From assembly GCA_964019165.1 (NCBI GenBank), contig OZ025274.1, forward strand, positions 15,843,858-15,907,857: a stretch of 64,000 bases of DNA, in the 5' to 3' direction. The DNA comes from Mastigias papua. Taxonomy: Eukaryota; Cnidaria; Scyphozoa; Rhizostomeae; Mastigiidae. Positions within the stretch are counted from its first letter, which is position 1, and each line of letters starts with the position of its first letter. Below, in pieces: positions 31,401 to 40,400 of this stretch. The notes under the pieces were generated by a model. It ran no database searches. It saw only the letters and a list, made by a program, of their open reading frames with translations, and was not told the origin of the DNA. A program made the position numbers and the translations under genes.

Positions 31401-34400
31401 TTTAACTGTTTTTATCGCTCGTAGCTTCAGAGAATGCAATGATCCTATGACACCAACACTACTATCCATTCAGGCTGCAGACAATTTCAGTCATATCACA
31501 CTGGAAAGACTTAGCATGATTGAGATGGGATGAAAACCTACGCGATAGCACGACCAGTACAGGCAACTCAAGATATATTTATGAGAGCTTCATTATGGTC
31601 ACGAGCATTTATAAATAGGGCAGAAATGTCCTACTGATTGTATAAGCTTCCTTTCACCCCATGTGGTAATAATAAGTCAAATTAAAGACAGGCGGACGTC
31701 TACAGACTCAACACATCACAATCGCAAGACTTGTTTTTTTAAGCAGAAGCAAACATAATCATCATGATCAACAGGGGATTTAGGCTCTACAATCTAGTGA
31801 ACATTAGCGTGGCAACGAATGATAAGCAGGACAGTGCAGTAAAGTAACAACAGCTTTGCATGTTATAAGCTAGGATGATCCATGCAGCAATTTCGTATCA
31901 TCATTGAAAAGAAACAGATAGCTAATCGAATAACAAGTATTAACTGATCAAAAGGGTGTTTTATAGACAAAGGAAGAGGATCAATTGTTATGAAAATAAT
32001 ACCCTATTCGAATACGAATCCATAAATCAATGACGTCCGTAAATCTTCTTGTATGCATTTCAGTATATGAACACACAACGCATTGAACGAAAAACTTTCT
32101 TGTTGAAAATTAAAATTTTCATTTAGTTTTCGGTATTGTACCTATTTAGACTAATAAATTTTACAAAAACGATATATGATACTAATGTGATTTTGTTTCT
32201 AGGGAAAGCCGGGTGGAAACTTCGTTAACTTCTCTGTGAAACAACGCATGCGCAAACTCTTGCTCTTAACCTCAAAGACTCACGTCAATCGATATGCTTT
32301 CTTCGCAAAAAAACTCTTCTGATAAGCAAGAAATCATCAATGTAACTGATTACTTTTTTCCAAATGGTACATTGCTACTACAGCAACGAATTTCAGTGAA
32401 AACGATAGGGATGTCAATGAGTAGCGTGTCTTGATATGAAATCCACAGTACTCAACAACAGCTTACAAATCATCTACACAAACCCTTTTAGGTCACGAAA
32501 CCAGGATTAAGATAGAGTATACGATGGATACACCAAGCAAGCCGTCACGATATAAAATCGAATAAAGAAATCTATCGATTCAAATACCAAAGTTATTTCT
32601 TATAAGTTTACATCGATAATCCAACAACGTATTCGAAACCACAGCATCAAAAACCAGAAGATTCTCCAAGAAATGGCAAATCCTAAGTTACCAAAACTTA
32701 CCAAAAAGCACCACACTTAATGTCATTTTTAAACTTGAGAGTTGTTTTAAATGGACAAAATGCACAAATTCTGCAGACAGACAATTTTCCAACAACTTTA
32801 AATCTTTGCACTTCCAGATGAAAGGCTCAGTTGTGGAAATTCAATGAGTTAGGACGATACGTAATAATCGGTTGTATATTACGAATTAAGGAAAATAAAG
32901 CAGCAAGCTAAGAGAAACGACAACACCAAATAGAAGACAGTCCGCGCAGTTCACCTAACATTGACGACGGCTGCGACCAAAACACTCTTCTGGTCTATTC
33001 TTGGGATGATATGATCAAAATAAATGAGACTGATGATACAACTCAGTGAAAACATACATTAAATTCTGCAAAAATGTCTCGATAGGGAAACATGAATAAA
33101 GATGCATATCTGCTCTTCCTTATCAAAAAACGTCATGAGAAAACAACTCCCCGTCCTTTATAAATTGTTTCCGTATGACTCTCAAGAAAGTAACTGTCAA
33201 GAAATGCAAGTAAAACTTTTAAATAAATTGTAGGCTTTTTAACTGAATAGTTCAGTCAACCATTAAGACCTGTTTCGAGTAGCAATCGCTAAAGTTCTTA
33301 AATCTGCTGCTATTAATACCAAAGAAACTTTCTCAACTACAGTAAATATGCGAAAAAAGAAGCGAAATAAGAAGAAAGCGTACCCGAAGGTCCTCGATCT
33401 CTCTGAGAAGGTCTTCCTTTTCACGTTCCAAAGTAATCAGCTGGTCATTCGTAATTTGTACAGCAGACTGGGCCTGTTAAAATAAACTAAAATGTTATTC
33501 CATATTATTGAGAAAGGCCCTATGCCGAATAAGCAAAGAATAAACACCTCTGGCATGTAAATTTCTTAAATATAAATAAACATACAATAAAAATATCTTA
33601 CTAAAGATAATTTAAATACTGAATTGTATATAACATTGCAGAAGAATGTGATAAAATTATTGAGTCCGGTAAAAGCACATGCAATAATGAAACAACGAAA
33701 ATCTACTAAATAGATGGTCCACCTGGGCACATGGGCAAATGGGATATAACAAAAAACAGAATATTAGTTGAGAAACTAGATTAGAAGTATGCTAAGGAGG
33801 TTGTTAAACAAAATCAACATTTCAGTAAGCATTAAGAACTGATGCTTCCTGGTGGAAGAGATTAATCTTAAAATTCATAAGAACTGGTAAAAGTTCAACA
33901 GAAAGTAAATAGCAAATTATAGAAAATATCGATCTGCTTGGGATTACAATTGATATGAAATGCAATCAAAAAAGCTACACGGATACAGGCTTGGATAGAG
34001 AATCTCATAAAAACTTCAGATGAAACTATCAAATGATCGGATTTCATTAGATTAATTCCCTGCTTGACGTCAGATGAAAACAAATATCTACGCCAATTAG
34101 GCAAGGAGCAATGTCAACCGTGAAAAAGAAGAAAGCGGTGTCCTGAAAGAAGAACGGTGTTAACATCCCATTTTGTCGCAACAATATATAAACATTGAAT
34201 ACGGCAACGCAAAAAAGACACGATGAATATCGAAACATTACTATCATCTCATTCTTCCGAATCTGACACACCCTTGGATATTGCAGGGAATGAAAGTTTG
34301 CTCTCTACAAATACCAAAAGAAGGAAACTTGTTCGACGCGTAAGCTTTAAAGGTGTAGATAAACGAAATGCCAGTCACATGTCAAAGATTTCAAAGAGAA

Positions 34401-37400: not shown

Positions 37401-40400
37401 TAAAAGAAGCTGCTGAGGAAGTAAGACAGTTAGACTGCTTGAAAGTGGAAGATTCATTTACAAGCAACATGGATACAAAGGAAATGTTATTCATGGTCAC
37501 GGATCATGTGACTAAAATGCTGGTATCGCTCGAAGGGAAGTTAGAAAAAGCAATGCTGAATAGGAGGCTACAGGTAAAAGCGGCTACAACGGCAAAGCAA
37601 TTAGCCATTAATGCCTTAGATAGGCAGCAAGAGAAGTTGAGAAAGGCGCAGGAATCTGCAGCCATTACGGGGGAGAAATTGAAGAAAACAGAAAATGAAA
37701 AAAGCCATGTTTCAAAAAGTTACAAAGCTCTGCTATGTGACTACAAATTATTGCAAAAGGACTTCGAGACATACAAAAAAACAATGAAAGTTCATTTGAC
37801 AATGAGGAAAGAAGCTGGGAGGGCGCATCAATCGAATAGAAAAGAATCGATTACAGAATGTTATGTAAAAGAATGTGAGATAGACAGATATGATGCGCAA
37901 TTGGATATTGTAGCTGCCGCCCAAAGGGATGGAGAGGTAAGCAGTTATACGGCGCAATTAGAAACTGCAGTTGCTACCCAACAGGATAGGGAGGTAGACA
38001 ATAATGTGGTGCAGCTAGAAACTGCAGTTGCTACCCAACAAAACGTGGAGGCAGACAGTAATGTGGCGCAATTAGAAACTGCAGTTGCTGTCCAACAGGA
38101 TAGGGAGGCAGACAGTAACGTGGTGCAGCTAGAAACTGCAGTTGCTACCCAACAAAATGTGGAGGCAGACAGTAATGTGGCGCAATTAGAAACTGCAGTT
38201 GCTACCCAACAGGATAGGGAGGTAGACAGTAATGTGGTGCAACTAGAAACTGCAATTGCTGCCAAAAAGGATGGGGAGACAGACAGCCATGCAGCAAAAC
38301 TAGAAACTGCAGTTGCTGCCAAAAAGGATGGGGAGGCAGACAGTAATGTGGTGCAGCTAGAAACTGCAGTTACTACCCAACAAAATGTGGAGGCAGACAG
38401 TAATGTGGCGCAATTAGAAACTGCAGTTGCTACCCAACAGGATAGAGAGACAGACAGTAATGTGGTGCAACTAGAAACTGCAATTGTTGCCAAAAAGGAT
38501 GGGGAGGCAGACAGCCATGCAGCAAAACTAGAAACTGCAGTTGCTGCCAAAAAGGATGGGGAGGCAGACAGCCATGCAGTGAAACTAGAAACTGCAGTTG
38601 CTGCCAAAAAGGATGGGGAGGCAGACAGCTATGCAGTGCAACTAGAAACTGAAGTTGCTGCCAAAAAGGATGGGAAGGCAGACAGCCATGCAGCGAAACT
38701 AGAAACTGCAGTTGCTGCCAAAAAGGATGGGAAGGCAGACAGCCATGCAGCGAAACTAGAAACTGCAGTTGCTGCCAAAAAGGATGGGAAGGCAGACAGC
38801 CATGCAGCGAAACTAGAAACTGCAGTTGCTGCCAAAAAGGATGGGAAGGCAGACAGCCATGCAGCGAAACTAGAAACTGCAGTTGCTGCCAAAAAGGATG
38901 GGAAGGCAGACAGCCATGCAGCGAAACTAGAAACTGAAGTTGCTGCCAAAAAGGATGGGGAGGCAGACAGCTATGCAGAGAAATTGGAGACTGCAGTTGC
39001 TGCCAAAAAGGATGAGGAGGCAGACAACTATGCTGAGCAATTAGACACTGCAGTTGCTGCCCAAAAAGACGGGGAGGAAGAACGTTATGCGGCGCAATTA
39101 GAACTCAAAGTGGCAGCCAAAAAGGATGGGGAGGCAGAGTATGATGCGAAACTGGAGATTGTAGCAGCTGCACAAAAAGATGGGGAGACAGGCAGATATT
39201 CTATTCAAAATTCAAGCTACATGACAGTAAAGATGAGAAAACAAAATAGCAATCAAATGAAGAAAGATAAACCAGAAATAAGGAAAGAATATGCTGTTCA
39301 TAGTAGCCAAACTAAACAAATGGAAAATCTGAGGCGTCTAGATGAGGCATTTCAGAAAGATGAAGTAACACCACAGATGTACGAAAAAGTTACAGATCTC
39401 ATAAGGAAAACGATGGGAATTCCACGAATAAGGTTTGTACACCTTGTTAAAAGATATTTGGACTACAACAGAATGGTGAACATGAAGGAGGCCTTGAAAG
39501 ATCGGTTCGCAAGACACAAGAACAAACTAAAGTCTACATGGTATGTGAGGGAGAGGGTTAATAAAAACTCAAGAAAATGGGAGGAAAAGAGAGCAGAATT
39601 TATCAAGCATAGATCAGCAATTTTAATGCAGTTGACAAAGGCATTCTCTACTTTAGAACAAGAAACTGGTCTTCAGTTGGTTGAACCGACATGGCATTGC
39701 AAGATAAACCAAAGGCCACCTAAAAACGAACACGTAAAATTGAGGCAGCTTGACAAGAAACCACCTGTTGGCCAAATGGGAGTTAGCATATTGGGAACTG
39801 GAATACGAGGAAGTATTCCTGAGCCACCTATTGATATGTGGGAGCAAGTACACATTGGCAAAGGGGCAAGAAAAGAAACGATCATTATGCCAAAGATAGT
39901 TGACTTGGATATAAACAGATGGAAGTATTCATCAGTAAGTCTTATAGTGAGAGATGTGAATGTGACGAGAGACCATGACGTTCTGAGAGCCAAAATGAAG
40001 AAGATCGAAGTGGCATACGCATCTAAACTAAAATTGCCACCTATAGCATCAATCTATCCTGAGGAATCGAACGAATCCAAAAGGCTTTACAAAAGAAGAA
40101 AACGATAAAATAATTTCTAAAAATACTGTGCATATAAGGAAAATAAAAACAAAAATCCCTGTTCAATATTTATTCGGAAAATACATGATATCTTGAACTA
40201 AATATTATTTGACGAGGCCATGTTTTCAAATAATGACTTGATTTATATTCGAGGAGCTTGGGTAGTTAAAGTCGCTTGTAGGGGGGGGGGGGGGCATTTT
40301 TCCTACCTAAGTTGCCAGCTTGGTACATCTATGCCAAAGGACACTTCTCTAACCTTTATACATCATATTTCATTGCACAAACATCCGAAGCGTGTTCTCA

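Follow-up and report, generated by a model that had tools for sequence, protein, structure and literature searches.

A single-exon FAM186-like gene nested antisense within a citron-type kinase intron

We know of no established function for FAM186A or FAM186B, the mammalian proteins with which the gene described here is compared. Their N- and C-terminal domains are represented in Pfam by the models PF20870 and PF20865, respectively. PMC9133692 gives values for human FAM186B RNA of 14,509 (controls) and 40 (Sertoli-only testes), and the gene is among the 30 most reduced in a comparison of three patients with three controls. The patient tissue contains only Sertoli cells according to the authors, and the genes lost alongside FAM186B include the axonemal and cilium genes CFAP43 and ZMYND10. 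PMC5343582 places FAM186A in a bull list of sperm-enriched transcripts, and PMC10548676 places it in an elephant table of seminal plasma proteins, that is, of seminal plasma and not of the sperm tail. The tie between mammalian FAM186 and testis that an earlier note on this DNA had asserted is supported by PMC9133692 for FAM186B and by PMC5343582 for FAM186A.

The locus lies in a 64,000-nt stretch of DNA, analysed as a whole and referred to as the window. The gene, its flanking signals and the bordering exons of the host gene are as follows.

34223..40108, plus strand: coding frame of the FAM186-like single-exon gene, 1961 codons, 223 kDa, pI 8.9
34185..34192, plus strand: possible TATA box, TATATAAA, 38 nt 5' of the ATG, assigned by position only
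40142..40147, plus strand: AATAAA polyadenylation signal, 34 nt 3' of the stop
40454..40561, minus strand: citron-type kinase coiled-coil exon on the upstream side of the host intron, AG/GT borders, phase 0
28578..28694, minus strand: next recognised citron-type kinase exon, on the downstream side of the host intron, AG/GT borders, phase 0

The coding frame runs from ATG to TAA with zero internal stops, a length of open codons expected by chance with a probability of ~1e-60 at the local base composition. Upstream of the ATG the frame is open back to position 34199, so that the TGA at 34196-34198 is the upstream in-frame stop. A possible CRE, TGACGTCA, occurs at 34065-34072, 158 nt 5' of the ATG; it is no evidence by itself, because the window contains four copies of this motif versus 0.69 expected. 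The description given in the earlier note, a 1961-codon plus-strand frame with its own in-frame upstream stop and a following AATAAA, holds.

The 3' border of the upstream minus-strand exon reads ACCAAA/GTAGGT, and the next recognised exon begins at 28694 with the border TGCAG/GAGTTA (slashes mark the junctions). The host intron thus delimited, 28695-40453, is 11,759 nt long, is in phase 0 at both junctions and contains the entire FAM186-like frame in antisense orientation, as had been claimed. It may contain an additional small exon. The domain order of the host on the minus strand is kinase, coiled-coil-like, C1, PH-like and CNH-like, the last two being weak matches (PH_MRCK, E=0.014; CNH, E=0.0063). 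The joined kinase pieces match MRCK/ROCK/DMPK kinases best, with MRCK alpha as the nearest solved kinase (E=1.1e-69), and no citron entry occurs among the best 60 of 2433 matches; from sequence features, the host is probably citron rather than MRCK.

Another intron of the kinase gene carries a minisatellite (41603-41731, 31 nt x 4.2 copies, 100% identical), and an AT dinucleotide array of ~129 copies lies inside the gene at 27650-27911. A BEL/Pao-type LTR retrotransposon (52397-58162, plus strand), a young insertion, lies ~1.1 kb upstream of the kinase gene as counted from its first recognised exon; it has two 205-nt direct repeats that are 100% identical and a single 1770-aa frame matching DUF1759, RT, Peptidase_A17, integrase zinc-binding and DUF5641. 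Elsewhere in the window, a minus-strand frame at 6679-7398 encodes an RA (Ras association) domain (E=7.4e-6), and two long minus-strand frames lie beyond it at higher coordinates (10088-11431 and 12577-14472, no Pfam match over cut-off); the three are possibly parts of one adaptor gene. A tRNA-Gly (gcc) is predicted at 4904-4974 on the plus strand.

Eleven relatives of the window protein (P0001) were found by three protein searches. The first returned three among the best 7978 candidates scored, the second added P0006-P0010 (1720 candidates scored), and the third, which used a permuted six-member alignment, added P0011 and proteins of Owenia fusiformis (P0012) and Antedon mediterranea (P0013) among the best 7991 candidates scored. 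The relatives returned by these searches include no named vertebrate FAM186. A tree built from 1004 columns of the 12 proteins groups the window protein with P0010 (support 97/96) and then with P0004 plus P0005 (100/100); together with P0003-P0011 it forms a ten-protein group apart from Owenia and Antedon (100/100). This group is apparently cnidarian, as judged from the tree and from the label of P0009, which we take to be that of the jellyfish Aurelia. P0003-P0011 have the N-terminal, middle and C-terminal blocks of the window protein. The Owenia and Antedon proteins, both uncharacterised, are shorter (1096 and 918 aa); by BLASTP they have the middle and C-terminal blocks in common with the window protein, and the N-terminal block is held in common with Owenia. 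From the full-length proteins reported on contigs, we infer that the relatives' genes are also single-exon. The regions of the window protein, all on the plus strand, are listed in N- to C-terminal order.

34619..35374, plus strand: N-terminal helical domain, FAM186A/B_N-like, residues 133-384, supported by an Owenia profile match
35309..35551, plus strand: long coiled coil predicted by AlphaFold2, residues 363-443 (helix 231-311 in the N-domain model, pLDDT ~80-93)
36223..37058, plus strand: tandem array, ~9 units of 31 aa (93 nt), from repeat scan and translation
37151..37843, plus strand: middle conserved block, residues 977-1207 (BLASTP: Owenia E=1e-21, Antedon E=2e-17)
37952..39138, plus strand: tandem array, ~21 units of 19 aa (57 nt), from repeat scan and translation
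39314..39736, plus strand: C-terminal helical domain, FAM186A/B_C (PF20865)
39899..40060, plus strand: C-terminal tail with a 10-residue motif and LPPIASIYP, from invariant columns of a nine-protein alignment, partly kept in Owenia and Antedon

The C-terminal domain supports membership of the family. The C-terminus of the window protein taken as an isolated piece matches PF20865 with 33.8 bits and E=4.1e-8, under the curated Pfam cut-off of 37 bits, and the whole protein scanned against Pfam gave no FAM186 match. The cut-off is exceeded by 10 of the 11 relatives: P0003 (47.2 bits), P0004 (41.8), P0005 (44.6), P0006 (42.0), P0007 (43.4), P0008 (47.3), P0009 (46.3), P0010 (41.0), Owenia (58.7) and Antedon (75.4), P0011 being the sole relative under it (33.9). 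A precomputed database label for PF20865 is present on 11/11 relatives and absent from the window protein, so that the breadth of the family was already discoverable; the matches listed from a search of open-licence literature include no paper on an invertebrate FAM186. BLASTP with the C block of the window protein gives E=2e-20 for Owenia and E=4e-20 for Antedon. A fold search with the predicted C-domain model, which is poor (mean pLDDT 51), returned no match under E 0.001. An unrelated coiled-coil protein might resemble the FAM186 models by chance, since several weak coiled-coil and helical matches do occur and PF20870 is not the best match of the window piece. That reading is highly improbable in view of the 46 invariant C-domain columns among nine proteins, the rise of the PF20865 score in Antedon, and the search of the 346.8-Mb genome with PF20865, in which the FAM186-like frame is the best match with E=8.1e-6 and the only other match has E=1.03 (among the best candidates scored). 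In the control for this model, a sub-cut-off match appeared in 1 of 14 control genomes. The FAM186-like assignment made earlier is therefore largely borne out.

The N-terminal block is more distant. PF20870 matches the window piece 34610-35215 with E=0.029, under the cut-off and second to an unrelated family. It was reached only with shorter pieces and never above the cut-off: it is the top match in four of four pieces from three relatives (P0003, E=0.0046; Owenia, E=0.0073 and 0.0088; P0011, E=4e-6 at 26.9 of 27 bits), and in 312-aa pieces of nine members it was absent from the first member's table and from the best 25 of 29 families. The matches agree in register, beginning at profile positions 6-10, and a nine-member N profile aligns with Owenia residues 54-309 with a probability of 96 and E=4e-9. 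We take these matches to reflect a genuine, if distant, homology. As PF20870 stays under the cut-off in every piece, the assignment of this end rests on homology to Owenia rather than on direct comparison with vertebrates. The AlphaFold2 model of the N domain has a mean pLDDT of 66.

The middle block is the best or tied-best conserved of the three blocks against 8/8 relatives compared, at 37-55% identity; the tie is with the C block, against P0009. A Pfam scan of residues 977-1207 gave nothing over the cut-off, and the block may therefore be an unlisted hallmark of the FAM186 family. In the alignments the N domain comes first, followed by the coiled coil and variable middle and then by the C domain, the Antedon protein starting inside the N block. 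This is the order of mammalian FAM186A/B, N, repeat-bearing middle and C, which agrees with the block order proposed in the earlier note, the N end by way of Owenia. Comparison with the mammalian proteins, made through Pfam models only, thus gives a C domain in common by profile and an N domain in register but under the cut-off; the window gene differs from theirs in its single exon and its antisense position within a kinase intron. Pfam scans found no enzymatic domain in the window protein, NCBIfam gave no match to it, and the PDB searched by sequence gave nothing meaningful, the best hit being a coiled coil with E 0.057.

Two tandem arrays occupy the linkers that flank the middle block, in agreement with the large tandem-repeat middle described in the earlier note. 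Both repeat lengths are multiples of three (57 nt x 20.8 and 93 nt x 9.0) with 0% indels, and the frame is kept. A self-offset scan of the 12 proteins detected arrays in the window protein, P0004 and P0005 only, the remaining nine, Owenia and Antedon among them, lacking them. As judged from the sequences, the arrays are additions to the protein; the repeats of FAM186A are presumably unrelated to them. Selection on the 19-aa units looks weak, with a pN/pS of 0.66 and differences by codon position of 0.26, 0.13 and 0.16. The corresponding value for the 31-aa array, 0.90 over 8/9 units, is unreliable, as the fixed register used goes out of step by a codon beyond the third unit.

The clade of the window protein in the tree is fast-evolving. 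Its stem has a branch length of 0.43 and the window tip 0.62, compared with 0.093 for P0003, and P0003, P0006 and P0007 all evolve more slowly than the window protein. A fast paralogue, suggested by this rate, was rejected: with P0003 as query the genome yields three matches, all in the FAM186-like frame (best 36 of 51 candidates scored), and neither P0003 nor PF20865 finds another significant match among the best candidates scored. The simplest reading is thus a single-copy, fast-evolving orthologue. The long branch, the added repeats and the weak constraint in the 19-aa array would also suit a homologue under relaxed selection, as a fast-evolving, decaying or lineage-specialised copy. We regard this as quite unlikely, given 1961 codons without a stop, the identity retained in the middle block and the lack of a second significant copy in those genome searches.

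Because human FAM186B RNA is nearly lost from Sertoli-only testes (PMC9133692), a role as a scaffold in male germ cells is proposed, and the window protein is a putative coiled-coil scaffold of these cells, probably of the sperm tail. Our preferred explanation, to which we give a probability of about 0.6, is that the gene is a functional, single-copy invertebrate member of FAM186A/B, encoded by one exon antisense within a citron-type kinase intron and specifying a sperm scaffold made by germ cells. The observed part of this explanation is the intact frame, its nesting, and its homology, in the N, middle and C blocks alike, to an Owenia protein bearing the FAM186 C-terminal domain. Male germ cells would make the product, which would serve the sperm as a rod-like coiled-coil scaffold, most likely within the cytoskeleton of the tail. 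Its terminal and middle blocks would bind partners, with the arrays as spacers of variable length; this would explain why arrays are gained and lost and the blocks persist. A true FAM186 homologue could alternatively serve motile cilia or centrosomes generally. The coiled-coil make-up would fit such a role, as would the loss of CFAP43 and ZMYND10 beside FAM186B in PMC9133692; such co-loss cannot tell a sperm-specific role from a general ciliary one. Both RNA papers (PMC9133692 and PMC5343582) concern testis and sperm, and we consider this alternative unlikely.

The annelid (Owenia) and crinoid (Antedon) members indicate that the FAM186 family is much older than vertebrates, in support of the earlier suggestion that it far predates mammals. 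More tentatively, and with the odds somewhat against it, FAM186 may be a sperm scaffold of all eumetazoans that predates the cnidarian-bilaterian split. The cnidarian gene would have become single-exon through retroposition, its spliced parent being lost, and would have settled in antisense orientation within a citron-type kinase intron; some branches would then have gained arrays in the same linkers where mammalian FAM186A gained its own. Annelid, crinoid and apparently cnidarian members point to which parts of the protein matter, above all the middle block that has no Pfam model of its own, and allow the function of FAM186 to be tested in animals that fertilise externally and have simple sperm.
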